Source: a virus. From it: a stretch of DNA of 24,099 nt. Shown here in pieces: positions 3,881 through 24,099 of the stretch (the first letter of the stretch is position 1; each line of letters begins with the position of its first letter). The translations under genes were made by a program, and so were the position numbers. Location: the IMG/VR virus record IMGVR_UViG_3300007960_000188, positions 1 to 24,099 of that record. One strand, given 5' to 3'. The notes below the pieces were generated by a model. That model was given only the letters and a program-made list of their open reading frames with translations. It was not told where the DNA came from and ran no database searches.

Positions 3881-4367
3881 ATTCATCCGAGTTTTTTGAC
3901 GTTAACATTCTAAGCAATTCGTTGCGGTCCAGTGCTTTACCCGTACCGTCTCCTAACGGAATGTTGTCTACTTCTTTAGTTTGCCTGCTGATTCGCTCAT
4001 CTAACTGAGCTTTTTTCAGTTGCAAATCAATCATCTTTAACTTCTTATTTAACTTGGCAGTTTTTGCAGTGATCGCATGTCCTAGCATGTTACCAGCGGC
4101 TGCGAAAATGTCACTAGCAAATCTAGAATCTACTTGCATACCTAAGTCTTGTAAATCTTTAAAACTGTTAGTTGCTAAATCTGCTAACTCATCTAATTCT
4201 TGATCAGAAGATTCTAATCCCCTCACCTGCGGCAATGCATTTTCTATCTTTTCTAGATTGTTGATTGCTTCCTGTGTTATTTCTTGTACAATACCAGGAA
4301 TAGGTTCTTCAAGTGGATTGTCCTCTTGAGAAGCGATGTCGAATAATTCTTCAAGTTTCTTAGTCAT
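3879..4367 (-). CDS. 16: Small terminase subunit (T4 gp16-like)
   Basis: 162 residues, matching the length of T4 gp16 (164). TerS binds the phage genome and regulates the large terminase during headful packaging. The recognisable block is DLxDLGMQVDSRFASDIFAAAGNMLGHAITAKTAK followed by a Lys-rich helix (LNKKLKMIDLQLKKAQLD), the helical core typical of gp16 in marine T4-like phages; the first 40 residues are acidic. The partner large subunit (gp17) is not in the window. The ATG has no good Shine-Dalgarno; instead TAAATA followed by five bases precedes it (4378-4373), overlapping the gp4 stop, so the mRNA may be leaderless or the gene coupled to gp4. Assignment rests on motif memory. Confidence 0.78.
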   Translation of the reverse strand: MTKKLEELFDIASQEDNPLEEPIPGIVQEITQEAINNLEKIENALPQVRGLESSDQELDELADLATNSFKDLQDLGMQVDSRFASDIFAAAGNMLGHAITAKTAKLNKKLKMIDLQLKKAQLDERISRQTKEVDNIPLGDGTGKALDRNELLRMLTSKNSDE

Positions 4368-4372
4368 ATCTC

Positions 4373-4380
4373 TATTTAGT
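4373..4380 (-). promoter_or_regulatory. Late-promoter-like ACTAAATA, five bases before the TerS ATG
   Basis: ACTAAATA, then GAGAT, then ATG on the minus strand, overlapping the gp4 stop codon. It deviates from GATAAATA at the second and first positions but has the exact TAAATA-N5-ATG spacing seen at four other genes. Confidence 0.5.
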
Positions 4381-4823
4381 TACTTTCCTCTTCCGTTGTA
4401 GAAAAGGTCATCTTCAGTCACTACACGAAACGTCAAGCCCTGTGCTTTACAATATGCTTGTGCTGATTTCCATTTAGCATGATTGATAGCAACAGTTGCC
4501 GCTGTTCTAGCAGAAACTACTTTGCTTTCTATAATGCTTTCTTTTTTTGGTTTTATCTCTACGATCTCTGCTCTGACTCTGCCAAACTTGTCTTGGTATT
4601 GTAAAAAGAAATCAGGTACGTAGTTAGTTCGTCTTTTAGTGATAGGGTGTATATAAGGGATTACTATTGCTTCGCTGGCCCATTTAAGTACTTTGTCATT
4701 GTTGTCGCAGAACATCATGAAAGTGAGTTCCCAACCTGAACGATATTTGGGCTTGTGTTTACCTATATATTTTTGTGGATTTTTCGGAGTGAATATACCC
4801 TGTGCGTATTTTTGTCTCGCCAT
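4380..4823 (-). CDS. 4: Head completion protein (T4 gp4-like)
   Basis: 147 residues, close to T4 gp4 (150). The protein acts after DNA packaging to complete the head before tail joining. Recognisable features are KxRSGWELTFMMFCDNN (about residues 25-42), a SEAIVIPY strand, the block NYVPDFFLQY and EIVEIKPKKE, in which PDF and E.KPK resemble the Asp/Glu-Lys core of TnsA/endonuclease-fold proteins, a resemblance noted for the gp4 family. The start has AGGT about 7 bases upstream. It lies 8 bases downstream of the 123-aa gene and 12 bases before TerS, in one minus-strand cluster. Clustering of gp4 with gp16 differs from T4, where they are far apart. Confidence 0.82.
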   Translation of the reverse strand: MARQKYAQGIFTPKNPQKYIGKHKPKYRSGWELTFMMFCDNNDKVLKWASEAIVIPYIHPITKRRTNYVPDFFLQYQDKFGRVRAEIVEIKPKKESIIESKVVSARTAATVAINHAKWKSAQAYCKAQGLTFRVVTEDDLFYNGRGK

Positions 4824-4831
4824 GGATCAAC

Positions 4832-5203
4832 CTATAATATTACATTTCGTTGCACTGTCTGATTTGGTGCAGGTTGATTTGCTACTCCATATAATGCTGT
4901 TTTAGTTCTTAGTAAATTTAGATAAAAGGCCATCTCTGCATTTAATTTTAGTTTATTGTTTCCTAAACCTTTCATGTAATCTAAAAATACCATTACATCT
5001 GTACCTGACTCCTGCGCTATTCTAAACAGTACTGTAGCAAATTGCGCCGCGGTTCTTTTAGCAGATTCAGTTTTTTTGTTTTGTGCACCAAGAAAAAATG
5101 AATTCACAATGTCCCACTGATCAGCAGGTACTATTAATTCTTGGTTGTAGAAATTATCAAAAATCTCTACTGTTCTGTCACCTTGTTGAATTTCTAAAGC
5201 CAT
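4832..5203 (-). CDS. Conserved structural-type protein of T4-like marine phages (123 aa)
   Basis: The pattern is a short N-terminal strand region (EIFDNFYNQELIVPADQWDIVNSFF), a helix with TAAQFATVLFRIAQESGTDVMVFLDYM, then LNAEMAFYLNLLRTKTALYGV and a short tail ending RNVIL. I recognise this layout from a small conserved protein found next to baseplate and tail genes in T4-like marine phages, whose role I cannot state. GGTGGA lies 8 bases before the ATG, overlapping the stop of the tube-initiator gene (gap of 3 bases), so translation is probably coupled to it. Transcription would come from the late promoter at 6463-6456. Confidence 0.65.
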   Translation of the reverse strand: MALEIQQGDRTVEIFDNFYNQELIVPADQWDIVNSFFLGAQNKKTESAKRTAAQFATVLFRIAQESGTDVMVFLDYMKGLGNNKLKLNAEMAFYLNLLRTKTALYGVANQPAPNQTVQRNVIL

Positions 5204-5206
5204 ATA

Positions 5207-6430
5207 TTATCCACCGAAAATAGAATCTATCACTGCACCAGTTGCTTTTCTTGCCGCATCTTGGATGCTGTTTACTTGACCACCTGCTGTAGGTGTTCCC
5301 CCTACAGTAGTTCTTGATGCCGCGCCTGTTACTACACCTTGGTTTGCAATATTTATAATCGTAGGAGTAGCACCGTTAGTAGGGGAATTAGCTGTAGTGT
5401 TAGTTTCGGGCCCACCGAATATAGCATTTTTAATAGCATCTGAAATACCGTTCTGTATCGCAGTAATAGCATTATCTTTAATAGCATCTAAATCGAATTC
5501 TTTAGCTAGTTTGGCTAATTCTGCGGCTTTTTGAGCCGGGGTCAACTCACTATTGATAATTTCTTCCATTCTTTGTTGGATTGAAAAGATGTCATTTGGC
5601 GCACCTTGAGCTAATGGACTTTCTGCTTTATCGAAATGTGCGCTCTCACCAAAACCAGTCACAAACTCATCTGGATTTTCAGGATCAATCTGTCCAGTAT
5701 TATATATAACTGTCTCGTAATCGATAGTCATCTGATTAGTCATCGTACCGTTACCCTCATTGTAATTGTAGGTATCGTGCGAGAAATTAGTAATTATAGG
5801 ATTAATCAGAGTATAAGCAATAAAATTATTAGCCCATAATCCATATACAGTAATATCTTTAAAGAAAGGAATCTTAGATCCGAAGTTTGGATAGTCTGGA
5901 TTCTGTCCTGCATTAGTGGACCCTCCCCTATAACCGTATTCTTGATCACCGGTTATAGAAGGGTCATATATATTTCTTCTGTTATAGTTCTTTAAGGCTG
6001 GTTGAGTAGCAAAAGGATTTACACTTGGGTTCCATGAATCTGCATAGTAGTATTGATAATATGCATGCCACATTGCAGTAACTTGACTCATGTTATCATC
6101 GTGAAAAGTCACATTGATAGGATCGTATTTAATCTTTGTCTGAACGATTCTTTTTCTATTATACTGGTTTAATTCGCTAGTATCAAATTTAAATGAAGGT
6201 AATTTAATTTCTCTAACTAAAATACCATAGTTCTTGCCAGTTGGAGGTTGCCACGCATCTTCATTGATATTGAAGTATGTGTGAAACATGAACTTGACTT
6301 TTGGAGCATTGCCCATGCCGCCCGGAACAAATACTCTAGAGGCGTGTTGCCAGTCACGTAAAGTTACACGATTTCCCAGCCCACCGAATACGTCTCCGAC
6401 GATATTGTTTACGTAATCCTTAATTGCCAT
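5207..6430 (-). CDS. 54: Baseplate tail-tube initiator (T4 gp54-like)
   Basis: The reading frame opens with TTG at 6433 and ATG at 6430; I take the ATG (407 aa), with GGAG about 9 bases upstream and a GATAAATA promoter at 6463-6456. gp54 caps the baseplate hub and nucleates polymerisation of the tail tube; it shares the tube-protein fold. Blocks seen: DWQHASRVFVPGGMGNAPKxKFMFH, LPSFKFDTSELNQYNRKR, the strand IKYDPINVTFHDD, and TNQMTIDYETVIYNTG near residue 250, all in the style of tube-fold proteins. T4 gp54 is 320 aa; the extra length is a C-terminal tail of about 140 residues with a helix (TPAQKAAELAKLAKEFDLD) and a Thr/Gly/Ala-rich end. The tube gene lies just upstream. Confidence 0.7.
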   Translation of the reverse strand: MAIKDYVNNIVGDVFGGLGNRVTLRDWQHASRVFVPGGMGNAPKVKFMFHTYFNINEDAWQPPTGKNYGILVREIKLPSFKFDTSELNQYNRKRIVQTKIKYDPINVTFHDDNMSQVTAMWHAYYQYYYADSWNPSVNPFATQPALKNYNRRNIYDPSITGDQEYGYRGGSTNAGQNPDYPNFGSKIPFFKDITVYGLWANNFIAYTLINPIITNFSHDTYNYNEGNGTMTNQMTIDYETVIYNTGQIDPENPDEFVTGFGESAHFDKAESPLAQGAPNDIFSIQQRMEEIINSELTPAQKAAELAKLAKEFDLDAIKDNAITAIQNGISDAIKNAIFGGPETNTTANSPTNGATPTIINIANQGVVTGAASRTTVGGTPTAGGQVNSIQDAARKATGAVIDSIFGG

Positions 6431-6455
6431 CAAGCCGTCTCCAATTTATATAATG

Positions 6456-6463
6456 TATTTATC
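6456..6463 (-). promoter_or_regulatory. T4-like late promoter octamer GATAAATA (tube initiator)
   Basis: GATAAATA on the minus strand between the terminator of the tube gene and the GGAG ribosome site of the gp54-like gene. Confidence 0.7.
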
Positions 6464-6464
6464 A

Positions 6465-6500
6465 TCCAAAAAAAGACCAGGTATTAATACCTGGCCTTTT
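6465..6500 (-). terminator. Factor-independent terminator after the tube gene
   Basis: Perfect 18-bp palindrome CCAGGTATTAATACCTGG (6477-6494), forming a 7-bp stem with a 4-base loop. On the minus strand it is followed by TCTTTTTTT. It sits directly after the gp19 stop at 6527. The plus side also has a short CCTTTT run, but no plus-strand gene ends here. Confidence 0.82.
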
Positions 6501-6526
6501 CAGTCTAGAACGATACTTAAAAACTA

Positions 6527-7153
6527 TTATACAGTTTCTAAGTTTGCACCAGTTGGGGTAGGACCACCTACGCCATTGTTTGCACCACCTAGACCGTCTG
6601 TCTGTACAGCGTTATCATAACGAATCGTCATAGCGATTGTAACCGCATCTGATGTGCCGTAGTTAAGAGTCTGGTAGTTAGCTTGTTGTAAGAAACATCC
6701 TGATAGTGACCAGTCTTCTAATACTTGTGGCTCGTTAGAACCGTTACCACCGTCTAGAATCTGAATGTCCATATCGAACTTATAGTTGCCACCAGCAGTT
6801 GCAGACGATTGATTAAAGAAGTCTAATTGTTTCTGTAATTGTGCGCCTACAGCCGCGGAAATAGCGCCTGTTGCGTCATCTCTGACGTTTAGAGCAAGTG
6901 TCTGCCATGTGTGTTTACCTGCAAGATATACACGTGAGTTGTACACGTTAAGTGTAATCTCATCAAACTGTACCTGAGGTCTCGCACAATCGATAACTTG
7001 CCTTGTTAGTACAGTTTGATCTGCACTTGGGAAACCGAAATTACTGAACATGACACGGAATCTGTACTGTAATTTTGGCATTAATAACTTTTCATTACCG
7101 GTACCTTCAGGAACTACTGAAAGGTTTTGTAATGTTGCTGATGCTGAAGGCAT
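6527..7153 (-). CDS. 19: Tail tube protein (T4 gp19-like)
   Basis: 208 residues (T4 gp19 is 163). It polymerises as hexameric rings to form the inner tail tube through which DNA passes. Supporting blocks are LQYRFRVMFSNFGF (residues about 28-41), LTRQVIDCARPQVQFDEITLNVYNSRVYLAGKHTWQTLALNVRDD, the stretch with DMDIQILDG, and LEDWSLSGCFLQQANYQTLNYGTSDAVTIAMTIRYDNA, the usual end of the tube fold. A Gly/Asn-rich tail of about 25 residues follows. CAGGAG lies 7 bases before the ATG and a GATAAATA promoter lies at 7184-7177. It is flanked by a hairpin upstream and a terminator downstream, so it can be made as a monocistronic, abundant late mRNA. It sits next to the sheath gene as in T4. Confidence 0.88.
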   Translation of the reverse strand: MPSASATLQNLSVVPEGTGNEKLLMPKLQYRFRVMFSNFGFPSADQTVLTRQVIDCARPQVQFDEITLNVYNSRVYLAGKHTWQTLALNVRDDATGAISAAVGAQLQKQLDFFNQSSATAGGNYKFDMDIQILDGGNGSNEPQVLEDWSLSGCFLQQANYQTLNYGTSDAVTIAMTIRYDNAVQTDGLGGANNGVGGPTPTGANLETV

Positions 7154-7176
7154 TGTAAATCTCCTGTTATATTATT

Positions 7177-7184
7177 TATTTATC
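7177..7184 (-). promoter_or_regulatory. T4-like late promoter octamer GATAAATA (tail tube)
   Basis: GATAAATA on the minus strand, 23 bases before the gp19 ATG, followed by an A/T-rich leader and CAGGAG. Confidence 0.72.
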
Positions 7185-7191
7185 TAAATTC

Positions 7192-7219
7192 TTAGAAAGT
7201 GGCCGAAGCCACTTTCTAA
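7192..7219 (-). terminator. C(UUCG)G hairpin between sheath and tube genes
   Basis: Perfect 12-bp stem (TTAGAAAGTGGC with GCCACTTTCTAA). The minus-strand RNA has the loop UUCG closed by C-G, an exceptionally stable tetraloop. It starts 10 bases after the sheath stop. A clean U-run does not follow (GAATTT), so it may be a partial terminator or a 3'-end stabiliser or processing hairpin. Confidence 0.7.
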
Positions 7220-7229
7220 CTTTTCTCTA

Positions 7230-10200
7230 TTATGCTCCGCCACCTGACAACTCACCAGTGTTAAAGATTCTAACAGGAATGTAGATGAACTCAGCGGCTT
7301 TGACTGGCTCTACAGCGATGTCAATCCAAAGTTCGTTTCTATCAATTCTTGCTGGTGTGTTATTAGAAGAATCACAAACAACAGAATAGTCGTATAGACC
7401 GCGCTTAGATACTAGATCCTGGAACAATGTCTCAATAACTGCTTTGATTGAGGTTCTTGTTGCAGTATCGTTAGGTTCAAACACGAACGGTCTTGCGGCA
7501 ATCGTTAATTGTCTACGGATATATGCAACTAAACGTGCTACGTTGATTCTGTCAAGTGCTGACTGTGAATCAAATGATGTTTTGTTACCATAGTTCAATA
7601 AACCGTTACCAGTAAAGAATACTAGTGGGTTGATGAAGTTAGTGTAAAGAACATCTCTGATGCCAACACGTGTTCTGATTGTCTGGAATTCGCCAGACTG
7701 TGCATCAATGTAACCGATGTTTGTAGCATTGTCAATGATACCGCGTCTTGTACCTGCTGGGGCTAACCAAGGGTAAGCGATTTGGTCATTGCGTAGCATT
7801 GTTCTTATCATCATGTGTGATGATGGAACTGCTACTAAGTTTCCTGACAAGTCAGTTGTGATACCACTTGGATAGAATAGACCCAAGTATGTATTTCTTG
7901 TTACACATCCATCTTCACCTGTTGATGTTGCGCCTGCGGCGTTAGTTGCCCAAGCCTGAATCTCAGTTGCAGAATCAGCAAGTCTCATTGGTGTATCACC
8001 AACGATGTAAGATGTCTCACCTCTATCAGAGTTTAGAACAACCATGTTAGGTTGTAACTCAGGATAGTTAGGAGCTGCCTGTAAGTTGAAGAAGTTATCT
8101 TCATCTCTGATAGCTGTATTAGTATCAAGTGCGGCTCTCATTGCCTGTACAACCATTGCTCTTTGAGCCTTACGACCCATGTAAGGAGCACCGTTTGATT
8201 GTAAGCCAGAAGCACTTACCCAAGCATCTTTCTGTGTTGGTAATGATCCGCTGTTAGGGAATCTATCAGCATTGAACCAGTTAACACGATACTGCTTGAC
8301 GTTATAACCAGAACGTCTTGTGTTGAATAACAACATACCTACCGGATATAGTGCATCATTTGGAGCATCGATATCTAAGTAATCGCTTGCTAGTAGAGCA
8401 GTGATACTTGGGATAGGATCATTAGCTGGGTTAGTTGTGCCGTTTGTAGCCCAACGTGCATCAGCAAACACGATACCAGAAGGATTAATCTGATCAGTGT
8501 TATCGATTCTTACCCACTTATCAACACCTTCAACTTGCTGCCAGCGATTGATTACTGGGTAGTTTTCAAGATCAGTTGTGTCGATCCAGAGATCACCGTA
8601 TGCAAGTGATGTACCATCAGATTGAACTGTTGGCTCAGATGCGCTTACGATAGGACCTGCAGGGTCAGTTGAGTTTAAGATGCTGGGTGATGGTAGACCA
8701 TTAGCATCGTAACCTTGATTTTTGTAACCTTTCCAAGCACCGTTGAAGTTGATCATGATATCAACTTGGTCTACTGTTGAGTAGAACCAGTTAGTTAAGT
8801 TATCAGGGATAGATGTTGGCTCACCTTCGTTTGAAATTAGTGAGTTAGCACCTGTAGTTGTTAGTGAGAACGCTCTCCAGTTAGACAACTGAACTGTGTA
8901 AGAAGGAGCACCTTCTCCTGAGAACCATGTCCATGATGTTACAGATCCTGCGCCATCAACTGAAGTAACTGTTACAGTTAAGTCATTTGCTGGGCTTGAT
9001 CCACCTAGATCAGTACCTGAGAACACAACTCTATCACCTACAGCGTGACCTGAACCACCTGCTACTACAACACCTGCGCTGAAATCATAGTTCTGATAAT
9101 CATTAGTTACAGAAACCTGTAAATTGATACCTGCGCCTGTTGTTGAGCTTTGGATAGGCTGAAATACAACATCATTTTTTGCAGGACCATATTTGGCACC
9201 TGCTGTTGTATTAGCTACGAAACCTGCTTCACTCCACAAATCTTGTGAAAGACCGGTTGATGTATCGAAATCGTCAAGTACAATTACACCACCTGCTGTA
9301 TGAGTGATAGTGATAGAACCATCATCATTAACTTGAGCAGAAGTATAAGGAACGTTTGCAGCCGACCATGCAGTCACAAAGTCTGTAGCGTCAGAGTTAT
9401 CTGCTAAGAAGAAGTTGTATGCAGAACTCAAAGATGCTGATCCTGGAGTTGATACTTGAATTCTAGCAGAGTAAGGACCATTTGTAAAGTCAGGAGCAGT
9501 GTTAGTACCCTTGATTGCTGTTGGACCTGTACCTGAACGATACCAGTAGTATAGAGGACTTGCATTATATTCGCCGTCATATCCGTACTGAGTATACACA
9601 GAGCCAGCTGGGATAGCTTGTCCACCTGTTGAATCAACAGTAACGATCTGTGCCCAGTCAGAAGAAGCAAATGTTTGTATTTTAGGCACAAACGATGCAG
9701 ACAATGAATCGTATTGAGAGATTGCTGGATTTAAGCCGTTACCTGCTGTACCTACCTTAACCCAGATAGAACCAGTTGGTGCTGGGTTAGATTGTCCGGC
9801 TTGCCATAGTGGCTGTTGAGCAGATGTTCCGTAGAACACTTTTGGCTGGAATCCAGTAGTTGTTGCCGCAAAACCTAAATCTGCAAGAACTGTTCCTGTA
9901 CCGTTTAGTACTCGTACAAAGTAGGTTGATGGGTTATCACCACCTGTCTGTGCTGAGTAGATAGCAAGTTTGTTATCCTGCACTGCGGCAAATAGATATT
10001 TCCAGTTAAGAGCATTGATATCTGCGGCAACCTGGCTAATAGTGTTATTTGGTGCAGCCTGAACAGTGATAGTTGCTATGTTTGTGCCGTTTAAAGCAAG
10101 ATCAAATGTGTCACCTGCTGTTAACGTTGGGTTAGAGTTATTACCTAAAAGTGCAGGCCATGCTTTGAACCATTCTTCACTTCCAAGAGCTACCCAAGTA

Positions 10201-10832
10201 TTAGTTGGAGCTTTGTAGAAGTAGACTGGTGCAGTCGATGCACTTGGATAATTGTAGTTAGCGATAGCAACTACAGCATAGTCACCGATATTACCAACTG
10301 ATCCTAGTGGTGCGCCTGCTGACAATAGATCACTGTCAGTGATTACGATAGGATTCTTAGGAGTGAAAGAACCAGTAGTTGCATTAAATTCATTGATACC
10401 CCATGTAGAAGTAGTTGAATCTAACCAATAAGAATCATCTTCTGGAGCTCCAGTTGGACGACCTGTTGAACCTACTAGACTTGCTAAGTCAATGTCTGCT
10501 CTTAAACAGAAGACTTGGTTAGATACACCAAGGGCTGAATAAGCCGTTAACAATCCATACTCGTTCAATTCGTAACCCTGAATAGGTGTACCGTTTGTTG
10601 TAGTATAGAAGAATGGATTACCGTACAGAGTGACAAGATCACGCTGACTTGTAATGCGATATAATTTATTAGCATTTGCGGCAGTAGTGGCTGCGGCAAT
10701 GCCTGTACCTGTTGGATCTGCCTTATCTTGCGCTGTTGCTAGCAAGAAGAAGGGTACTGATGCTGGTGCGCCTGGTAAGTATTGACTCTCGTCAATGATC
10801 GTTACTTCTACGCCTGGTGATGTAAGTGCCAT
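7230..10832 (-). CDS. 18: Tail sheath protein (T4 gp18-like), greatly enlarged
   Basis: 1200 residues against 659 in T4. The sheath surrounds the tube and contracts at infection. The N-terminal region (residues 1-120, MALTSPGVEVTIIDES..., VPFFLLATAQDK, NQVFCLRAD) and the C-terminal core (about 885-1190: RGETSYIVGD, PWLAPAGTRRGIID, GNGLLNYGNKT, IDIAVEPVKAAEFIYIPVRI) are standard sheath. Between about 125 and 870 lies a long insertion made of Gly/Ser/Thr-rich beta modules. These include two or three W-containing units (SYWLDSTTSTW, GSIWVKVG, GDLWIDTTD...YPVINRW) and a GGSGHAVGDRVVFSG...LTVTVTSVDGAGSVTSW module near 592-635. AAAGGA precedes the ATG and a GATAAATA promoter lies at 10896-10889. 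The insertion probably faces outward on the tail surface (inference). Confidence 0.9.
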   Translation of the reverse strand: MALTSPGVEVTIIDESQYLPGAPASVPFFLLATAQDKADPTGTGIAAATTAANANKLYRITSQRDLVTLYGNPFFYTTTNGTPIQGYELNEYGLLTAYSALGVSNQVFCLRADIDLASLVGSTGRPTGAPEDDSYWLDSTTSTWGINEFNATTGSFTPKNPIVITDSDLLSAGAPLGSVGNIGDYAVVAIANYNYPSASTAPVYFYKAPTNTWVALGSEEWFKAWPALLGNNSNPTLTAGDTFDLALNGTNIATITVQAAPNNTISQVAADINALNWKYLFAAVQDNKLAIYSAQTGGDNPSTYFVRVLNGTGTVLADLGFAATTTGFQPKVFYGTSAQQPLWQAGQSNPAPTGSIWVKVGTAGNGLNPAISQYDSLSASFVPKIQTFASSDWAQIVTVDSTGGQAIPAGSVYTQYGYDGEYNASPLYYWYRSGTGPTAIKGTNTAPDFTNGPYSARIQVSTPGSASLSSAYNFFLADNSDATDFVTAWSAANVPYTSAQVNDDGSITITHTAGGVIVLDDFDTSTGLSQDLWSEAGFVANTTAGAKYGPAKNDVVFQPIQSSTTGAGINLQVSVTNDYQNYDFSAGVVVAGGSGHAVGDRVVFSGTDLGGSSPANDLTVTVTSVDGAGSVTSWTWFSGEGAPSYTVQLSNWRAFSLTTTGANSLISNEGEPTSIPDNLTNWFYSTVDQVDIMINFNGAWKGYKNQGYDANGLPSPSILNSTDPAGPIVSASEPTVQSDGTSLAYGDLWIDTTDLENYPVINRWQQVEGVDKWVRIDNTDQINPSGIVFADARWATNGTTNPANDPIPSITALLASDYLDIDAPNDALYPVGMLLFNTRRSGYNVKQYRVNWFNADRFPNSGSLPTQKDAWVSASGLQSNGAPYMGRKAQRAMVVQAMRAALDTNTAIRDEDNFFNLQAAPNYPELQPNMVVLNSDRGETSYIVGDTPMRLADSATEIQAWATNAAGATSTGEDGCVTRNTYLGLFYPSGITTDLSGNLVAVPSSHMMIRTMLRNDQIAYPWLAPAGTRRGIIDNATNIGYIDAQSGEFQTIRTRVGIRDVLYTNFINPLVFFTGNGLLNYGNKTSFDSQSALDRINVARLVAYIRRQLTIAARPFVFEPNDTATRTSIKAVIETLFQDLVSKRGLYDYSVVCDSSNNTPARIDRNELWIDIAVEPVKAAEFIYIPVRIFNTGELSGGGA

Positions 10833-10954: not shown

Positions 10955-11305
10955 ATGCCTACAAAAAGACCTATTTGTAAGAATTGCAACAAGAACGTAT
11001 GTGCAGTAAATTACATACGTGATGGTGTGCGGCATTACCGAAGCATCTGTGACTCTTGCGGTAAAGATAGAAAGAAGACTAGAAAAACATTCTCTTGGGA
11101 GAAAGCAGGTTATCAAAAAAAGAATATATGTGATGTGTGCGGGTTCACCGCACTATATCATACACAGATGACTGTGTTTCATATAGACGGTGAGTTGACT
11201 AACACTGAGTTTTCTAATCTACGTACTATCTGCTTAAACTGCGTAGAAGTTGTAAAAAAGAAAGAAGTTCGCTGGAAGCGAGGAGATTTACAAGTCGATT
11301 ACTGA
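10955..11305 (+). CDS. Zinc-ribbon / degenerate HNH-like small protein
   Basis: 116 residues. Two cysteine pairs, CKNC at about 8-11 and CDSC near 32-35, form a likely zinc knuckle. The second half reads ICDVCGF, then VFHIDGELTNTEFSNLRTICLNC, which follows the HNH layout (CxxC, H-x-DG-x4-N-x5-NL-x4-CxxC). The first catalytic His is replaced (VFH instead of VHH), so nuclease activity is uncertain. I recognise a protein of this type, ending in WxRGDL, as conserved in T4-like marine phages. It is the only plus-strand gene between two minus-strand blocks. No Shine-Dalgarno is visible and the ATG lies five bases after TATAAATA. Its last 18 bases overlap the 3' end of the kinase gene, tail to tail. 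Confidence 0.75.
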   Translation: MPTKRPICKNCNKNVCAVNYIRDGVRHYRSICDSCGKDRKKTRKTFSWEKAGYQKKNICDVCGFTALYHTQMTVFHIDGELTNTEFSNLRTICLNCVEVVKKKEVRWKRGDLQVDY

Positions 11306-11908
11306 TTCTACTAGATAATGTAGATCGTCAATCGACCCGTTATTATCTATCACATAATCATATTTCAATCCCACGCTACTATACTCGCTTGCATGAACAT
11401 TATAATCCATCAATTTTGCGAGTGCTTGTGGGTTTTGTGTCAGAGTATATTCTTCAGCATAACCAAACCAGTCTGGATTTTCTCCCCTGACTACTCTAAT
11501 AACTGTACCACCTGAATTCTTGATAGCGTCAACTTCATTTGGAAATCTACAATCAGTAATAACTACATTGTCTTTGATCTTGCGTAGAGTATTTTCTATC
11601 GATGCTACCCAGATATCGTTATGAAAGTTTCTCCTGCAAACTTCAGTACCCCAGTGCTGTAACACCCATCTAGGAGTAAGATGAGGAACATTTAATCGTT
11701 TTGCCCACCACTCGTCAACTTCTTCACGCCATTGTCTACTAGATAGTGTAGTGCCTTCTAGTAACTCTCGGTCCCAGCCGAATATAGCGGCAACAGCATC
11801 TTTAAGTGGTGTTGCATAACTTAGTTTTTTGAATCCATGAAATCTAATAAGGTAGTCTGCTACAGTATCCTTACCGCTACCGATCAAGCCTGTGATGCCT
11901 ACGATCAT
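11288..11908 (-). CDS. 1: Deoxynucleoside monophosphate kinase (T4 gp1-like)
   Basis: 206 residues. It would phosphorylate dNMPs to dNDPs with ATP, feeding phage DNA synthesis in the cytoplasm. A Walker A P-loop GLIGSGKDT is at residues 7-15, and the following FxKLSYATPLKDAVAAIFGWDRELLEG block is typical of dNMP kinases. WVLQHWGTEVCR and VVITDCRFPNEVDAI, with the Asp/Arg of the nucleotide-binding region, complete the family pattern. CAGGAG lies 8 bases before the ATG. A sigma-70-like promoter (TTGATA-17-TATAAT, 11967-11939) directly precedes it and no late octamer is seen, fitting an early or middle enzyme. The 3' end overlaps the convergent HNH-like gene by 18 bases. Confidence 0.88.
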   Translation of the reverse strand: MIVGITGLIGSGKDTVADYLIRFHGFKKLSYATPLKDAVAAIFGWDRELLEGTTLSSRQWREEVDEWWAKRLNVPHLTPRWVLQHWGTEVCRRNFHNDIWVASIENTLRKIKDNVVITDCRFPNEVDAIKNSGGTVIRVVRGENPDWFGYAEEYTLTQNPQALAKLMDYNVHASEYSSVGLKYDYVIDNNGSIDDLHYLVESVIDL

Positions 11909-13230: not shown

Positions 13231-14016
13231 TTAACCTTGGATCCAAGTCAGAGGTTGTGAGTAATCTACGTAGTTCTTCAAGTCTGTCAGCAATCGTTCT
13301 TGCTCTGCTTTAGATTCTGCCTTCATTGCCGCGCCGTTAAGTGCAGTACCGCCGCCGGGTCCTGCAATAGTTGAGAATTTTTCACGTGCTTCACCCATGA
13401 TGCCTTTTAAGACTGCTAGACAAAAATCATATAGCCAGGGAGAGATACCCGGATCTTGTAACAATGAAGTTTCTGGACGTTGAATATCTGCCCAGATTAG
13501 AACTTGTTCGCCTGAGCCTTTAAAGTCTCTTACGAATCTAATCTGTTTAGTGACTGGATCAAACGTATAGATAACAAAGCCACCAAACATTCTAGCGGCT
13601 AGCTCTACGTATCCTGCATAGAAATCATATGTCGCCATGCCACCTGCATAGTTGTAGTTTAACAAATAAGTGTTTAAGATCGCACTTGAGAATGGATCAA
13701 ACGAACTTGCGGCTGGACCTGTCTCTAAGCCGATTGTTCTTCTGAATACTTGTCTTACGTTAATAAACTCACTAGGTAGGGTGTAAGTGTCTACGTTTTT
13801 GTCGATAGTCAACAGAGTATAAGTTTCTTGGACTGCATTCTCAGCACGTTGCCTATAGGTCTTTATCGTGTAGATATAAGCCTGTTCGTAATGCTCAGGG
13901 TCTAGTTCTAGATCGATAATACCGTCGCCCAATCTGAAACGAATGTTATCAAACATTTCTTCTTTGAGTTGTTCTAGATTCAGATTGTTAGGTACTGCAA
14001 GAATATCAGAAGCCAT
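13231..14016 (-). CDS. 13: Neck protein (T4 gp13-like)
   Basis: 261 residues (T4 gp13 is 309). Neck proteins sit under the portal and seal the filled head before the tail binds. The N-terminal 60 residues are helical and acidic. TYTLPSEFINVRQVFRRTIG, the FDPFSSAILNTYLLNYNYAGG stretch, VIYTFDPVTKQIRFVRD and WADIQRPETSLLQDPGISPWLYDFCLAVLKGIMGEAREKFSTIAGPGGGTALNG match the order of blocks in gp13 of T4-like marine phages, ending in the helical KAEQERLLTDLKNYV segment. AAGGA lies about 8 bases before the ATG and a GATAAATA promoter at 14045-14038. gp14 is encoded 2.5 kb away on the other strand, unlike T4 where 13, 14 and 15 are adjacent. Confidence 0.78.
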   Translation of the reverse strand: MASDILAVPNNLNLEQLKEEMFDNIRFRLGDGIIDLELDPEHYEQAYIYTIKTYRQRAENAVQETYTLLTIDKNVDTYTLPSEFINVRQVFRRTIGLETGPAASSFDPFSSAILNTYLLNYNYAGGMATYDFYAGYVELAARMFGGFVIYTFDPVTKQIRFVRDFKGSGEQVLIWADIQRPETSLLQDPGISPWLYDFCLAVLKGIMGEAREKFSTIAGPGGGTALNGAAMKAESKAEQERLLTDLKNYVDYSQPLTWIQG

Positions 14017-16490: not shown

Positions 16491-18230
16491 ATGCCAAGAC
16501 TATCATTATACAGACCCGAAAAGCAAAACGACTATCGTTTTTTGGACAGAACTATCTCTGAACAATTAACGGTAGGGGGCACCGACCTATATATCCACAA
16601 GTATCTGGGTCCCCAAGACAACGGGCCTTCAGCAGACTTTACTCAACCCCAATATGATAAGCTGGATCCATTAAATATCCAAGACTTGTTATTTCTGGAA
16701 AACAGAGATCGTAAGTATGCTAAGGATATCTATCGTTTAAGAGGTCATTATAATGTCCAAAACTTAGATTTCGATCTAAGTCAGTTTGGGTTATTCTTAA
16801 GTAATGATACTATCTTTGTCACTGTTCATTACAATGATATGATAGATGTTATAGGCAGAAAATTAATGGTTGGGGACGTTTTAGAACTACCTCACTTAAT
16901 GGACTACAACCCATTGAATGAAACGTTCCCTACAGCACTGAAACGCTTTTACCAGATCACAGATACGAACTATGCAAGTGAAGGTTTTAGCCAAACTTGG
17001 TTCCCGCATCTATGGCGCATCAAGTGCGAGCCTCTAGTTGATAGCCAAGAATTCAGTAACATTCTCAAAGAGCCAGTCAACAAAGACAACTATCTAGGTG
17101 ATTGGGACAAACTAAAAGTTTACCCACCGGGCTATGTAGTTTCATACGGTGATAAAAATTATATCTCATTACAAGAAGTACCCGCTGGTACAATACCAGG
17201 AGCAACAGATCCTGATCCATATTGGAAATTAGACACAACTGATTCACTAAAAGATATTCTAGGTCGTTACAATAAGAATTTAGAAATCAACGACAAGAAC
17301 TTAGAAGAAGCAAAACGCATTCTACCAAAAGCAGGTTACGACACAACAGATTTGTATGTTGTTCCTGGATATGGACTCTGGGAAGCCAATGGCGTTCTGT
17401 CTAATAAATTAAATCAACCTGCACCGCCTGTCGATATTCGTAGCTGGATGCCCGGCAACTCTGCTTTGACTAGTACTGGTCAAGTTATCACAATGCGTAG
17501 CAGTCAATACAAATATTCTTCTTCAGGTATCAAAGTATCTAAAGAAACAATGAATGCTATTCAACAGAGATTGGGCGGCAAGATTGATCTAGAAAATATT
17601 ATCGATAAGTTCGTACAAGCCAACTTACAGATATTAACTGAAGCACCTGAGATGATGAAGTCGGGATCAGGGGCATTAGAAGGTACAAAGATACTTTCTG
17701 TTCAAATTGCTGGTCCTGTTATAGGACCATACGGTACTGCTGATAACACTTATGCAACGGCAGACCAAGACCCAACTGCGGCAGGATTCACAGGTACAGA
17801 ACCCTATGGTCCTAACACAATGAACTATCGTGCAGACTGTGATCCTAGATTCCAGTATATTGCAAGATCAACACCAAGAGATTTCGGTTATACAACAGGG
17901 TACTTGACAGGCGAGGGGGCTGCACCAAACGGTTTACCAACTGGTGCAGGCTTAGCGTTCCCTCAAGACCCGCAAGTAGGCGACTACTTCTTACGTATAG
18001 ACTATACACCAAACGTCTTGTTCAGATGGGACGGGCAATTGTGGTTAAGAGTAGGTGAGAATGTCAGAACAGATACAGGTTACACTGCTGGAGATACATC
18101 ATTGCAATCAGGATTTATTAATAACCAAGATGAAATCTTTGTAAATAATGAAGGGACTGAAGTTCCGTCAGCACAACCTCTATCATCGATGTTGCAGTTG
18201 GCACCTGATCCTATTCCACCAGAAGAGTAA
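16491..18230 (+). CDS. 14: Neck protein (T4 gp14-like), extended, with carbohydrate-binding-like insert
   Basis: 579 residues against 256 in T4. gp14 caps the neck below gp13 and receives the tail. The core is in residues about 15-195: DRTISEQLTVGGTDLYIHKYLGP, a DLSQFGLFLSNDTIFVTVHYNDM block, GRKLMVGDVLELPHLMDY and ALKRFYQITDTNYASEGFSQTWFPHLWRIKCEPL. Residues 202-247 (DWDKLKVYPPGYVVSYGDKNYIS...PDPYWKLD) look like a chitin-binding (CBM5/12-type) module with spaced Trp/Tyr. Near the end, VGDYFLRIDYTPNVLFRWDGQLWLRVGENVRTD (497-528) is a module I recall from neck proteins of marine phages. The start is fixed by GATAAATA-N5-ATG; no Shine-Dalgarno is present. gp15 follows after 3 bases. Confidence 0.82.
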   Translation: MPRLSLYRPEKQNDYRFLDRTISEQLTVGGTDLYIHKYLGPQDNGPSADFTQPQYDKLDPLNIQDLLFLENRDRKYAKDIYRLRGHYNVQNLDFDLSQFGLFLSNDTIFVTVHYNDMIDVIGRKLMVGDVLELPHLMDYNPLNETFPTALKRFYQITDTNYASEGFSQTWFPHLWRIKCEPLVDSQEFSNILKEPVNKDNYLGDWDKLKVYPPGYVVSYGDKNYISLQEVPAGTIPGATDPDPYWKLDTTDSLKDILGRYNKNLEINDKNLEEAKRILPKAGYDTTDLYVVPGYGLWEANGVLSNKLNQPAPPVDIRSWMPGNSALTSTGQVITMRSSQYKYSSSGIKVSKETMNAIQQRLGGKIDLENIIDKFVQANLQILTEAPEMMKSGSGALEGTKILSVQIAGPVIGPYGTADNTYATADQDPTAAGFTGTEPYGPNTMNYRADCDPRFQYIARSTPRDFGYTTGYLTGEGAAPNGLPTGAGLAFPQDPQVGDYFLRIDYTPNVLFRWDGQLWLRVGENVRTDTGYTAGDTSLQSGFINNQDEIFVNNEGTEVPSAQPLSSMLQLAPDPIPPEE

Positions 18231-18233
18231 TTT

Positions 18234-19835
18234 ATGGCACAGTATTTTTACGACAATCAGATACGCAGATTCTTGTTACAGTTTGCAAAAATTTTCAGCA
18301 ATTGGTATGTTACCAAAGGTAACGATCCTAACGGCAACCCAATCTTAGTTAGAGTACCAATCATGTATGGTGATGCAAGTAGACAAGCATCTACTATCAT
18401 AGCCAACAACTCTGCTAGTAACATGCCTTCTGCTCCTCTGATAACTTATTTCATCAACGGTTTAGAATACGATCAGAGACGCACACAAGAGCCGTACTTC
18501 GTTGAAAAGCAAAACATTAGACAACGTACATACAATCCTGAAACACAGTCTTATGACACTACACAGGGGCAGGCCTTCACTGTTGAGAAGTTGATGCCAG
18601 TGCCTTATACATTGCGTATTCAAGTTGACTTCTGGACTACTAACTATCAGCAAAAGTTAGAGTTAGTAGAACAATTAGGTACGCTTTTCAACCCAAGTTT
18701 AGAGATTCAAAGCACTGATAACTTTATCGATTGGACTTCGTTGAGTGTCGTATATCAAGACGGTTTGACATTCTCGTCACGTAGTATTCCTCAGGGAACA
18801 GGCAACCCTATCGATGTGATGTCTTGGAAATTTTATATTCCTATCTGGTTGACTACATCAGCCAAACTAAGAAAATTTGGAGTCATTCACAAGATCATCA
18901 CTTCTATCTACGAAGGCAGAACTATCCAAGATATGCAAGATGATGATCTATTGCTTGGTACCCGTCAAAAGATTTCTCCATACGGGTACAAATTATTATT
19001 GATAGGAAACTCATTACAGTTATTACCACAGAAGGAACCTTTCTATCCTTCCAATAGTAGCTTAGATAGACCTACAAACCCCGACACTGACATTTTCTGG
19101 CCGTCTCTACTTAACTTATATGGAGCATATAAACCGGGATTGTCACAAATTTGGTTAGAAAATCCATATATGGATAATGAGATTGTAGGTACGATTGTAG
19201 TAGATCCTCTGGACGAAAGGTATCTAATTTATGATATCGATCCTGATACGTTACCCACTAATACACTAGAACCAGTAGATAGTGTAATCAATCCCCAATT
19301 GACAGGGCCAAACTCAGGATTGCCTGGCCCTACACCAAACAAACGTTATCTTCTAGTAGAAGACATCGGTACTGATACGTCATCATGGGGACTTATGTTA
19401 GGTAGTGTTTCTGGTATATCAGCTACCCCCGAGACGATGCCTATCACTGCTGGAGTACCTGGCGGCTATTACATGATTGCAAATCCCGGTAGCACTGACT
19501 TCACGGCATTAGGCGCCGGAGCAAATACAGCAGGTACTATCTTTACTTTAAATAATGTAGAACCTGCAGGTACCGGTACAGTATATAAGATTGAAGATGC
19601 GTCAGCTAATGATATCATTCAATATAACGCTGATATCGGAGCTTGGTTTATCGCATTTGATTCTAGCGAATATCCAGACGATGTACAATACGTATTGAAT
19701 TTGACTACTCAAATACAATACAGATGGGCTCCCACTCCCCAAGAACCCGGCAATGTGCAACCTGCACAAGAAGCACAGTGGATGAAGTCTTATGAAGGAT
19801 ATTATAACGAAGGTGATTACAGCATAGTTATTTAA
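18234..19835 (+). CDS. 15: Tail terminator / proximal sheath stabiliser (T4 gp15-like), extended
   Basis: 533 residues against 272 in T4. gp15 caps the finished tail and docks it to the neck. The N-terminal 300 residues carry the family pattern: FYDNQIRRFLLQFAKIFSNWYV, VRVPIMYGDASRQASTI, PLITYFINGLEYDQRRTQ, VPYTLRIQVDFWTTNYQQKLELVEQLGTLFNPSLEIQSTDN and MSWKFYIPIWLTTSAKLRKFGVIHKIITSIY. Later, YLLVEDIG (372-379) and ANDIIQYNADIGAWFIAFDS (458-477) look like one C-terminal domain split by an insert at about 400-455 (YYMIANPGSTDFTALGAGANTAGTIFTL), a phage structural module. Starts 3 bases after gp14 with only a weak purine-rich AGAAGAG upstream, so it is co-transcribed and probably translationally coupled. 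Confidence 0.85.
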   Translation: MAQYFYDNQIRRFLLQFAKIFSNWYVTKGNDPNGNPILVRVPIMYGDASRQASTIIANNSASNMPSAPLITYFINGLEYDQRRTQEPYFVEKQNIRQRTYNPETQSYDTTQGQAFTVEKLMPVPYTLRIQVDFWTTNYQQKLELVEQLGTLFNPSLEIQSTDNFIDWTSLSVVYQDGLTFSSRSIPQGTGNPIDVMSWKFYIPIWLTTSAKLRKFGVIHKIITSIYEGRTIQDMQDDDLLLGTRQKISPYGYKLLLIGNSLQLLPQKEPFYPSNSSLDRPTNPDTDIFWPSLLNLYGAYKPGLSQIWLENPYMDNEIVGTIVVDPLDERYLIYDIDPDTLPTNTLEPVDSVINPQLTGPNSGLPGPTPNKRYLLVEDIGTDTSSWGLMLGSVSGISATPETMPITAGVPGGYYMIANPGSTDFTALGAGANTAGTIFTLNNVEPAGTGTVYKIEDASANDIIQYNADIGAWFIAFDSSEYPDDVQYVLNLTTQIQYRWAPTPQEPGNVQPAQEAQWMKSYEGYYNEGDYSIVI

Positions 19836-21377: not shown

Positions 21378-22301
21378 TTAACTGCTTGCGATAGTTACGA
21401 CTGGGTAAGGAACACCATTTGCGGCATCTGCGGCTTCTGCTGAACCAAACGTTAAGAACGCGGGATCAGAACCAGCTAATGTACCGTCACCGAATAGTTC
21501 ACCGTTGTGATCACTAAAGCTGAAAGCACCTGTGTTAGCACTGTTAGCATAAGTTGCTTGTACGCTGAATGTATTTGGTAATAATGTAGTACCATAGTCT
21601 GCTGTAAATGCCTGAACTTCTAAGCCGGTTGTTGCACCGTGAATCAAGTATTTGGTTTTACCTTTTTGTCTTACGACATAACCAGCTTCTTCGTCACCAT
21701 AGACCCATTCAGATCCAGATACGTTTGCGCTAGCGTTTGCAAGAAATGTTGCGAATACTGCGTTAGCATTAGCGATATCATCGATAATACCTAAGAATGT
21801 GCCGTCTGCTGTAGTTACGACAGAACCATCTGAAAGAGTGTTTGCAAAGTCAGTGCCTACACCATCTAAGTTTGGACTATCATCTGCACATGATATTGTG
21901 CCGTCACCAGCAATACCGATCACAGCAGTGATCAATACTTGATTACCATAAATTGCTGTGTCTCCACCAACGATACCATAACCTGAAGCGTTTGAGTAAC
22001 CTGAGTCAACAACGTTGACTGAAAGTGCTACTGAACCACCTGAAGTAGTTGAAAGAGTTGGTGATACTTGTGGTTGAACTGAAGGATGATTTACTAGTGC
22101 TGAGAAAGTTGTTCCTGAAAGAATTTCTTTGACCCAGTAAGTAGTACCTGCTACTAAACCACCTACGTTTGATGCTACTACGAAACGCATGCCAGCACTG
22201 AAGTCAGCGGTGCTTGATACAGTGATGATGTTAGTAGTAGCGGCTGTTGCAGTCAATGTGACTACGGTTTGCGCTTTTGCGATTTTTAAAGGACGTCCCA
22301 T
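21378..22301 (-). CDS. Virion structural-type protein with beta-rich modules (307 aa)
   Basis: Begins GRPLKIAKAQ, an opening I associate with abundant structural proteins of marine phages. Residues about 20-70 (TNIITVSSTADFSAGMRFVVASNVGGLVAGTTYWVKEILSGTTFSALV) form a module often inserted in phage fibre and virion proteins. The middle has GYGIVGGDTAIYGNQVLITAVIG and a Gly/Asp/Thr-rich region. EAGYVVRQKGKTKYLIHG (about 207-224) is another conserved block, and the end reads NGVPYPVVTIAS. AGGAG lies 7 bases before the ATG after a structured leader of about 80 bases that starts near the GATAAATA at 22391-22384. Strong promoter and ribosome site suggest high late expression. Capsid decoration or appendage are both possible. 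Confidence 0.68.
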   Translation of the reverse strand: MGRPLKIAKAQTVVTLTATAATTNIITVSSTADFSAGMRFVVASNVGGLVAGTTYWVKEILSGTTFSALVNHPSVQPQVSPTLSTTSGGSVALSVNVVDSGYSNASGYGIVGGDTAIYGNQVLITAVIGIAGDGTISCADDSPNLDGVGTDFANTLSDGSVVTTADGTFLGIIDDIANANAVFATFLANASANVSGSEWVYGDEEAGYVVRQKGKTKYLIHGATTGLEVQAFTADYGTTLLPNTFSVQATYANSANTGAFSFSDHNGELFGDGTLAGSDPAFLTFGSAEAADAANGVPYPVVTIASS

Positions 22302-22412: not shown

Positions 22413-24099
22413 TTACAATCTGCCGACAGCGATCTCAATAACGCCCTCATCACCAGTAAAGTTTTCTAATGATTTACCTAATACTGTACCAATCTTTGGT
22501 GCTATGATAGTTGCTTTAGCATAACCGTTACCAGCACTTACCATCATGTCACCCTTAGATACAGGACCTTTTACTTTGACTGGGCATCTACCTTGCAGTG
22601 CGATAGCAACTTTATTGCCCTGACATTCGCTGTTCATTACATATGCAGGGTTAGTAGATACTACACCTGCAAGTTTGAATGTCTCTTCACCTGCTAATGT
22701 GACTTCTTTCTCGCCACCAAACTCTAATACAGTACCCGGTTCATAAATCTTGTCGCCTTCATAGTATTCTGCTAAGTCAGCGTATGTTGCTTGTAATCTT
22801 GAACCAGCTGTTAGAGTCCAGTTACCTGTTACTGTACCTGCTGTTGTGTTAGCACCGGTAGTTAGTGCGGTACCACGTAATGTAGTTGCTCTAACAGTAC
22901 CAGAGTTAGCATAAACGTTTCCTGCTGTTACAGCACCAGTCACACCTAGAGAAGTCAATGTACCCACTGATGTGATGTTAGGTTGTGCCGCAGTTGTTAC
23001 AGTGCCTGCTGTTGTTGCTGATGTAGCACTACCTGCACTTGTTGCATAAGTTGCATTAGCAACAACACCAGAAACATTTGCACCTGCAACACTATTAGCA
23101 GTAGTTGCGTAAGCTACTGCTCCACTTACATTACCACCTGCTACACTATTAGCAGTAGTTGCGTAAGCTACTGCTCCACTTACATTACCACCTGCTACAC
23201 TATTAGCAGTAGTTGCGTAACTTACAGCACCTGTTACATTAGCACCAGTAATTGATGTTAATGCAGAACCGTTACCGCTAATTGCAGTTACAGTTAATGT
23301 ACCAGTTGTTTTATCAAATACAAGACCGTTATTACCTGCTAGGGCACCAGCGTCATTAAATTGAACTTGAGTGTTAACTCCACCAGGAGTAGAATTCCCA
23401 ACAGTAACGCTATTGATGTTAGTACCGCCGCCTGTAATTGCGGCATAACCAGCAAGTGAAGTAGTCCAAGTCATTGTGAGTGTATTAGCATCTACGTAAT
23501 CAATAGTTGGATAATCGTATCTACCGGTATAAGAAATGCCATTAGCATCGATTGCTTCAACACCTACATATCTTCTATTAAGATTATGATTAACTGTCCA
23601 AACATTACTTGCAGAAACTTGTGTATGTAAGAAATACCCGCCGTCTGGATTAGTCCAACTTAAGTTACCTGCACCATCAGTTTTTAGAATATAATTTGCT
23701 GTACCACCAGTGATTGTGACATTGCCAACTGCACCTAAATCTGAGGTTCCAGATACTTTTAAAGTTCCTACGTTAGCATTACCAGATGTAATTAAGTTTC
23801 CACCTGTTACACTTCCAGTAACTCCCAACGATGTAAGAGTGCCTACCGAAGTAATGTTGGGTTGTGCGTTTGTAGTTAAAGTACCTGAAACAGTTGTCGC
23901 AACGACTCCAGTAGCACCTAAATTACCTACGTTAGCATTACCTGTTACTGCTAAAATTCCACTTGTTGAAATATTACCTGCGCTTAAGTTTCCTGTAACT
24001 GTTACAGAAGACATAGTAGCGGAGCCTGTGCTTTGAATATTGCCGGCGATTACGTTAGCAGAAATGTTACCGCTAAAAGTAGTTGTTGTTAAGTTTGAA
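22413..24099 (-). CDS. Repeat-rich tail fibre protein, C-terminal part, with Peptidase_G2-like end (runs off right edge)
   Basis: The reading frame is open to the right edge; an internal ATG at 24014 is not the start, since 28 codons before it continue the same repeat pattern. At least 561 residues are visible. The chain has Gly/Asn/Thr/Val shaft repeats, two copies of AQPNITSVGTLTSLGVTG, a central beta module (HTQVSASNVWTVNHNLNRRYVGVEA...DANTLTMTWT, coded near 23430-23640) and a perfect 54-bp tandem repeat at 23107-23214. The last 125 residues (DLAEYYEGDKIYEPGTVLEFGG..., LAGVVSTNPAYVMNS, VAIALQGRCPVKVKGPVSKGDMMVSAGNG) resemble the Peptidase_G2 / intramolecular-chaperone domain at fibre and spike ends, which cuts itself after trimer assembly. 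The catalytic residues cannot be assigned. The late promoter for the 307-aa gene follows the stop. Confidence 0.8.
   Translation of the reverse strand, partial: SNLTTTTFSGNISANVIAGNIQSTGSATMSSVTVTGNLSAGNISTSGILAVTGNANVGNLGATGVVATTVSGTLTTNAQPNITSVGTLTSLGVTGSVTGGNLITSGNANVGTLKVSGTSDLGAVGNVTITGGTANYILKTDGAGNLSWTNPDGGYFLHTQVSASNVWTVNHNLNRRYVGVEAIDANGISYTGRYDYPTIDYVDANTLTMTWTTSLAGYAAITGGGTNINSVTVGNSTPGGVNTQVQFNDAGALAGNNGLVFDKTTGTLTVTAISGNGSALTSITGANVTGAVSYATTANSVAGGNVSGAVAYATTANSVAGGNVSGAVAYATTANSVAGANVSGVVANATYATSAGSATSATTAGTVTTAAQPNITSVGTLTSLGVTGAVTAGNVYANSGTVRATTLRGTALTTGANTTAGTVTGNWTLTAGSRLQATYADLAEYYEGDKIYEPGTVLEFGGEKEVTLAGEETFKLAGVVSTNPAYVMNSECQGNKVAIALQGRCPVKVKGPVSKGDMMVSAGNGYAKATIIAPKIGTVLGKSLENFTGDEGVIEIAVGRL
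23107..23214 (-). repeat. Perfect 54-bp tandem repeat, two copies, in the fibre shaft
   Basis: 23107-23160 and 23161-23214 are identical and encode an 18-residue unit of the type GGNVSGAVAYATTANSVA. Diverged copies flank it on both sides (near 23053-23106 and from 23215). The identity at base level indicates recent duplication and a site of copy-number change. Confidence 0.85.

Follow-up and report, generated by a model that had tools for sequence, protein, structure and literature searches.

A phage tail sheath protein of 1200 amino acids with a large modular central insert, encoded on an IMG/VR virus genome fragment

The IMG/VR virus record IMGVR_UViG_3300007960_000188, itself a fragment, was analysed over its entire 24,099 bases (the window). 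An uninterrupted open reading frame (ORF) on the reverse strand (positions 7230-10832) codes for 1200 amino acids plus the stop codon, as claimed in the original prediction, which was made from the DNA letters alone. The product is a phage tail sheath protein of the gp18 type: residues 1-1193 match residues 2-913 of 915 in the tail sheath family phrog_10581 (E = 5e-206), and the Pfam domain Phage_sheath_1C is found at residues 1089-1189 (E = 1e-16). Three regions can be distinguished. The N-terminal half of the sheath core (10479-10832, reverse strand; residues 1-118) is delimited by conservation and by its structural match to other sheaths from about residue 22, while the C-terminal half (7233-8198, reverse strand; residues 879-1200) includes the Phage_sheath_1C domain. 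Between them lies a modular insert of ~760 residues (~8199-10478, reverse strand; residues 119-878), delimited by conservation within the family, where identity is 0.74-0.85 over residues 1-125, 0.39-0.68 over residues 150-725 and 0.76-0.89 over most of residues 876-1200. The coordinates first proposed for the insertion, 7605-10457, correspond to residues 126-1076; the insert is indeed located there, but ~600 bases of this range already belong to the C-terminal core, and residues 125-870 are equivalent to positions 8223-10460.

A structural model was built with AlphaFold2 from an alignment of 72 relatives, a single-sequence model having been discarded at a predicted local distance difference test score (pLDDT) of 30. 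The family-based model has a mean pLDDT of 88.9 and a predicted template modelling score (pTM) of 0.68. The insert (residues 121-880) is modelled with a mean pLDDT of ~91 and consists of 35% strand and 9% helix, and the C-terminal core is 37% helical. Against solved sheaths, 305-340 residues could be aligned over ranges from about residue 22 to 1180 with Z scores of 24-30, among them those of Klebsiella phage KP1 (29.7), a Streptomyces contractile injection system (~27), pyocin R2 (26) and T4 gp18 (24.4), and Photorhabdus virulence cassette (PVC) sheaths were likewise among the matches of the model's core. Minimal sheaths of ~350 residues align over ~305 residues, which fits a core built from the two ends of the protein. 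The whole-model structural searches are dominated by this core, and PDB matches of single insert domains could be missed. Conservation, the model and the alignments bear out the predicted arrangement of intact N- and C-terminal cores around a beta-rich modular centre, and the extra sequence is not simply normal sheath core. The modules had also been described as rich in Gly, Ser and Thr, but at 30% the share of these residues in the insert only slightly exceeds that in the core halves (25% and 21%). Similarly, an insertion of ~745 residues is appropriate when measured against a minimal ~350-residue sheath; T4 gp18, however, holds 258 residues at the same place (domains I and II, residues 88-345; PMC3004832), so that the net gain over T4 is ~500 residues.

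Several modules, here designated U1 to U10, can be told apart in the insert by profiles and predicted strands, all encoded on the reverse strand. U1 (10329-10475; residues 120-168), U4 (9633-9800; residues 345-400) and U8 (8703-8843; residues 664-710) are tryptophan-containing (W) units, and a domain of ~100 amino acids occurs twice, as U3 (9828-10151; residues 228-335) and U6 (9198-9515; residues 440-545). The remainder comprises the short beta unit U2 (10167-10307; residues 176-222), the short unit U5 (9513-9632; residues 401-440), the ~90-residue module U7, which resembles domain I of T4 gp18 (8904-9182; residues 551-643), the 'GDLWIDT' unit U9 (8481-8663; residues 724-784) and U10, a conserved segment leading into the C-terminal core (8193-8480; residues 785-880). 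The duplication of U3 and U6 is evident from profile comparison (97.9%, E = 5e-13; best of 60 column-shuffled controls 1.6%), and U3 also matches its equivalent in Agrobacterium phage Atu_ph07 and Sinorhizobium phage Phosso (81% by profile; best control 0.7). In Phosso this equivalent (residues 198-232, mapping to residues 245-284 of the window protein) scores 28.4 bits for the flagellin hook IN motif of Pfam (Flagellin_IN, PF07196), above the curated cut-off of 22.7, with weaker scores in Atu_ph07 (1e-3) and in the relative L130 (9e-3). Pfam scans of the window protein, whole or in segments, did not find Flagellin_IN, and the domain is therefore named flagellin-IN-like through its homology to Phosso; scans of isolated window segments gave nothing significant, and U3 alone had no tblastn match in phage records. 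The three mutually similar W units of the original prediction were recovered by profile (U1 and U8, 94%; U1 and U4, 74%), a modest signal given that the best shuffled controls reach 35% and 19%, respectively. A likeness of U9 to U1 or U4 was dropped at only 9-12% by profile.

U7 has the form GSGxxVGDxVxxSG...NDLxVxV, and its profile matches residues 102-168 of T4-type gp18, within domain I (80%, E = 1e-5; 100 column-shuffled controls at or below 2.1%). The other nine modules showed no profile match to T4 gp18. The T4 protein (659 aa) thus shares the core fold of the window protein and bears its extra domains at the same topological place, but it has 258 inserted residues rather than ~760, and the only likeness detectable by profile, that of domain I, is placed differently within the insert. 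U7 also matches the baseplate-wedge family phrog_32294 (E = 2e-4, and 9e-6 for the second copy in the relative L119). Searches of phage records returned only weak matches of the window U7 to cyanophage virion proteins and none for the L119 copy. The module that had been likened to phage adhesins thus finds its best matches in gp18 domain I and a baseplate-wedge family, and in no recognised adhesin.

Relatives were gathered with the window protein as the query, and their counts are thus not natural frequencies. The 64 other full-length relatives first found in IMG/VR (1177-1216 aa, 54-100% identity) have all kept the insert, and further relatives, both longer and shorter, came from a subsequent scan with profiles, in which full-length close relatives of 1175-1290 aa likewise all carry it; no close relative of full length that lacks the insert was encountered. 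Full-length sheaths of clade A are near-uniform in length (1175-1216 aa), save those of L104 (1233 aa) and L119 (1290 aa). In more distant jumbo phages the insert becomes stepwise smaller, with sheath lengths of 1086 aa in Atu_ph07, 888 aa in RaK2 and 714 aa in XacN1. By profile, U1, U9 and U10 are present in most of the wider group, although U9 is missing in RaK2-type, XacN1 and T4-type sheaths. U3 occurs in clades A, B and C as well as in Atu_ph07 and Phosso, U5 and U6 in clades A, B and C only (in a plain hidden Markov model search, Atu_ph07 and Phosso scored for U6 as well), and U7 is confined to clade A and the T4-type sheaths. Clade B, at ~50% identity to the window protein, has the same protein minus residues 551-643. 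When the tree is built from core sequence only, the 45 of 82 tips with U7 group together against the 37 without it (unrooted split support 1.0; the value of 0.136 at the U7 ancestor is a re-rooting artefact). The 1290-aa sheath of L119 (positions 4001-7870) has ~100 extra residues after the site equivalent to residue 524 of the window protein, including a second domain-I-like stretch. Separate sheaths of ~1050-1076 aa starting with MAEQTFxSPGFFExEIDL are encoded at L177 (1415-4642), L178 (1475-4624) and L179 (1454-4657), on contigs of bacterial metagenome-assembled genomes (Flavobacteriales, Halobacteriovorax and Methylococcaceae). They match the window protein in the C-terminal core only, and large sheaths may have more than one origin.

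The sheaths of Phosso (1091 aa) and Atu_ph07 (1086 aa) belong to the same family as the window sheath, with the same core and gene order, and share U1, U3 (with the Flagellin_IN motif in the equivalent domain), U4, U8, U9 and U10 with it. They are, however, ~110 residues shorter, lack U7 and carry a U4-type W unit elsewhere, near the position of U7 in the window protein. The sheaths of RaK2, 121Q, Munch and PA5oct (879-888 aa) have the core, the neighbourhood and a U1-like W unit in common with the window but, by profile, lack U3, U5, U6 and U7; that of RaK2 has been produced as nanotubes (PMC8618960). A core with large multi-domain inserts is also seen in LacPavin_0818_WC45 (1283 aa), Mad1_20_16 (1248 aa) and BFVD sheaths of 1283 and 1492 aa (S-CBWM1), which are compared here at the level of the whole protein and gave distant overall matches to the window where searched. 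Evseev et al. 2022 (PMC9230969) modelled 112 phage sheaths and defined a multi-domain 'type 3', which has at least three domains, the extra ones lying away from the part in contact with the tube. Atu_ph07 (1086 aa), Mad1_20_16 (1248 aa) and LacPavin_0818_WC45 (1283 aa) are listed there at five domains or more; sheath size correlated with genome size, and adhesion and virion stability were proposed as roles. As such oversized jumbo-phage sheaths have been published, the window sheath belongs to a known kind. A paper on aquatic 'moraphages' (PMC12619734) makes no mention of its relatives.

The sheath gene adjoins two tail tube paralogues (6527-7153 and 5207-6433, reverse strand, both phrog_4542; 208 and 408 aa), as also found in Atu_ph07, Phosso and PA5oct, while three tube genes are annotated in RaK2. 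With the genes for a deoxynucleoside monophosphate kinase (11288-11908) and a head closure protein (4380-4823), the order kinase - sheath - tube - tube - head closure is common to the window, Phosso and PA5oct and is similar in Atu_ph07 and RaK2. A small HNH endonuclease ORF (10955-11305) lies on the forward strand between the sheath and kinase genes, and homing endonuclease genes are also found near the sheath genes of PA5oct and RaK2. Further along are genes for a head-tail adaptor (13231-14016), a neck protein (16491-18230, forward strand; 579 aa) and a gp15-like sheath terminator (18234-19835, forward strand; 533 aa), the latter two about twice the size of T4 gp14 and gp15 (256 and 272 aa). 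A variable C-terminal extension of the gp15-like protein among relatives was dropped, being based on ORFs cut by the locus ends. Two fibre-like ORFs on the reverse strand (22413-24014 and 2-556) have 'YATTANSVAGGNVSGAV' as a repeat unit and are conserved in a C-terminal region (phrog_6427; phrog_19602, tail fibre), and beside them a 307-aa protein (21378-22301, reverse strand) had no Pfam or PHROG match.

The explanation that we favour, with a probability of roughly 0.6, is that the protein is a gp18-type sheath subunit whose core is formed by its two terminal parts and which has gained outer beta modules over time, with a mainly structural job. Within this explanation, the virus is an aquatic myovirus of large size with Atu_ph07, PA5oct and RaK2 as relatives. 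Its sheath would contract by means of a core composed of residues ~1-118 and ~880-1200 and packed on the tail tube, while the ~760-residue insert would exit and re-enter this core at the site of domains II and I in T4 gp18, forming a set of beta modules on the sheath exterior. Judging from their distribution, the modules would have accumulated within the phage group, with the W units the most widespread, the duplicated IN-motif domain narrower and the domain-I-like module restricted to one clade. They would widen and armour the long sheath and add contacts between subunits, and any adhesion to surfaces would be at most weak and nonspecific. A structural role is the simplest reading of the insert, probably in the form of spacing, bulking or stabilisation. 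The widths of contracted sheaths agree with such a role, at 41 nm for RaK2 (888 aa; PMC8618960) and 33 nm for T4 (659 aa; PMC3004832), although these are two data points from proteins other than that of the window. Several considerations weigh against this explanation. The pTM of 0.68 leaves the relative placement of the modules uncertain, and their probable outward direction is taken from T4 gp18, in which exposure is greatest for domain I and least for the termini (PMC8570332). The new subunit contacts are likewise proposed rather than seen, and the preference for stabilisation over adhesion is one of likelihood.

Selection on the insert is purifying, and the constraint on it is relaxed. Pooled over 33 independent pairs of relatives, some of them near saturation at synonymous sites, the ratio of nonsynonymous to synonymous substitution rates (dN/dS) amounts to 0.27 in the insert and 0.20-0.35 in each of its modules, compared with 0.11 and 0.14 in the core halves, and no hypervariable segment was seen in the insert in this analysis. 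The insert has about double the core's rate of evolution, relatives differ in the modules that they carry at this location and L119 has a further domain-I-like copy, as might be expected if the modules were near-neutral passengers recombined into a permissive surface loop with little harm. This is nevertheless very improbable, as the dN/dS of every module points to selection to keep it and the lengths in clade A are near-uniform apart from L104 and L119. Some credence, although well short of that given to a mainly structural job, can be lent to the idea that the sheath is a flagellin-like platform, with fixed terminal core halves and a swappable central surface region, the thick coat giving the tail a surface with a selected function in adhesion, armour or fibre docking. 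This idea centres on the duplicated flagellin-IN-type domain, the W units and the relocated T4-domain-I-type module, duplicated again in L119.

The number of sheath subunits per tail bears on two further possibilities. The T4 sheath has 138 subunits (PMC3004832) and that of phAPEC6 25 rings of six, so that ~140-150 copies, rather than the hundreds first envisaged, are to be expected from characterised tails. Such a copy number would suit outer modules acting as adhesins, with weak glycan binding by each subunit causing the tail to adhere to host capsule, mucus or particles ahead of fibre engagement. The location of 23 of the 26 tryptophans within the insert, the U7-type module of the baseplate-wedge family and the published proposal of adhesion for extra sheath domains (Evseev et al. 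2022; PMC9230969) are compatible with this. It is, however, rather unlikely, as no carbohydrate-binding module or lectin family was matched by Pfam in the whole protein, nine segments of it or 32 aligned sequences, and the insert shows purifying selection without a hypervariable segment. Furthermore, of the 5430 ORFs in the retrieved loci, among them the fibre genes of the window, no non-sheath ORF was matched by an insert profile, and neither were the neck and gp15-like proteins. The glycan-binding function suggested in the original prediction is therefore not upheld. A sharing of modules between sheath, neck and fibres was similarly dropped, since neither BLAST within the window (sheath against neck, gp15-like and fibre proteins) nor profiles found similarity. 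The insert might instead anchor hair-like fibres or decoration proteins on its outer modules, by analogy with the tail fibre rings of phAPEC6. Those fibres occur at three positions only and not on every ring, a poor fit to a docking site on every subunit, and no partner protein was identified in this analysis, making anchoring improbable.

Relative to the oversized sheaths already published, the present analysis contributes the history of each module in an aquatic group, a domain-I-like module limited to a single clade and the duplication of the flagellin-IN-like domain; in a literature search of narrow scope, no previous account of a flagellin-IN motif in a sheath turned up. Followed module by module, the relatives, with sheaths of 714 to 1290 residues, provide a resolved case of sheath growth in jumbo phages, and the role of the extra sheath domains becomes testable in the cultivable relatives RaK2, Atu_ph07 and PA5oct.
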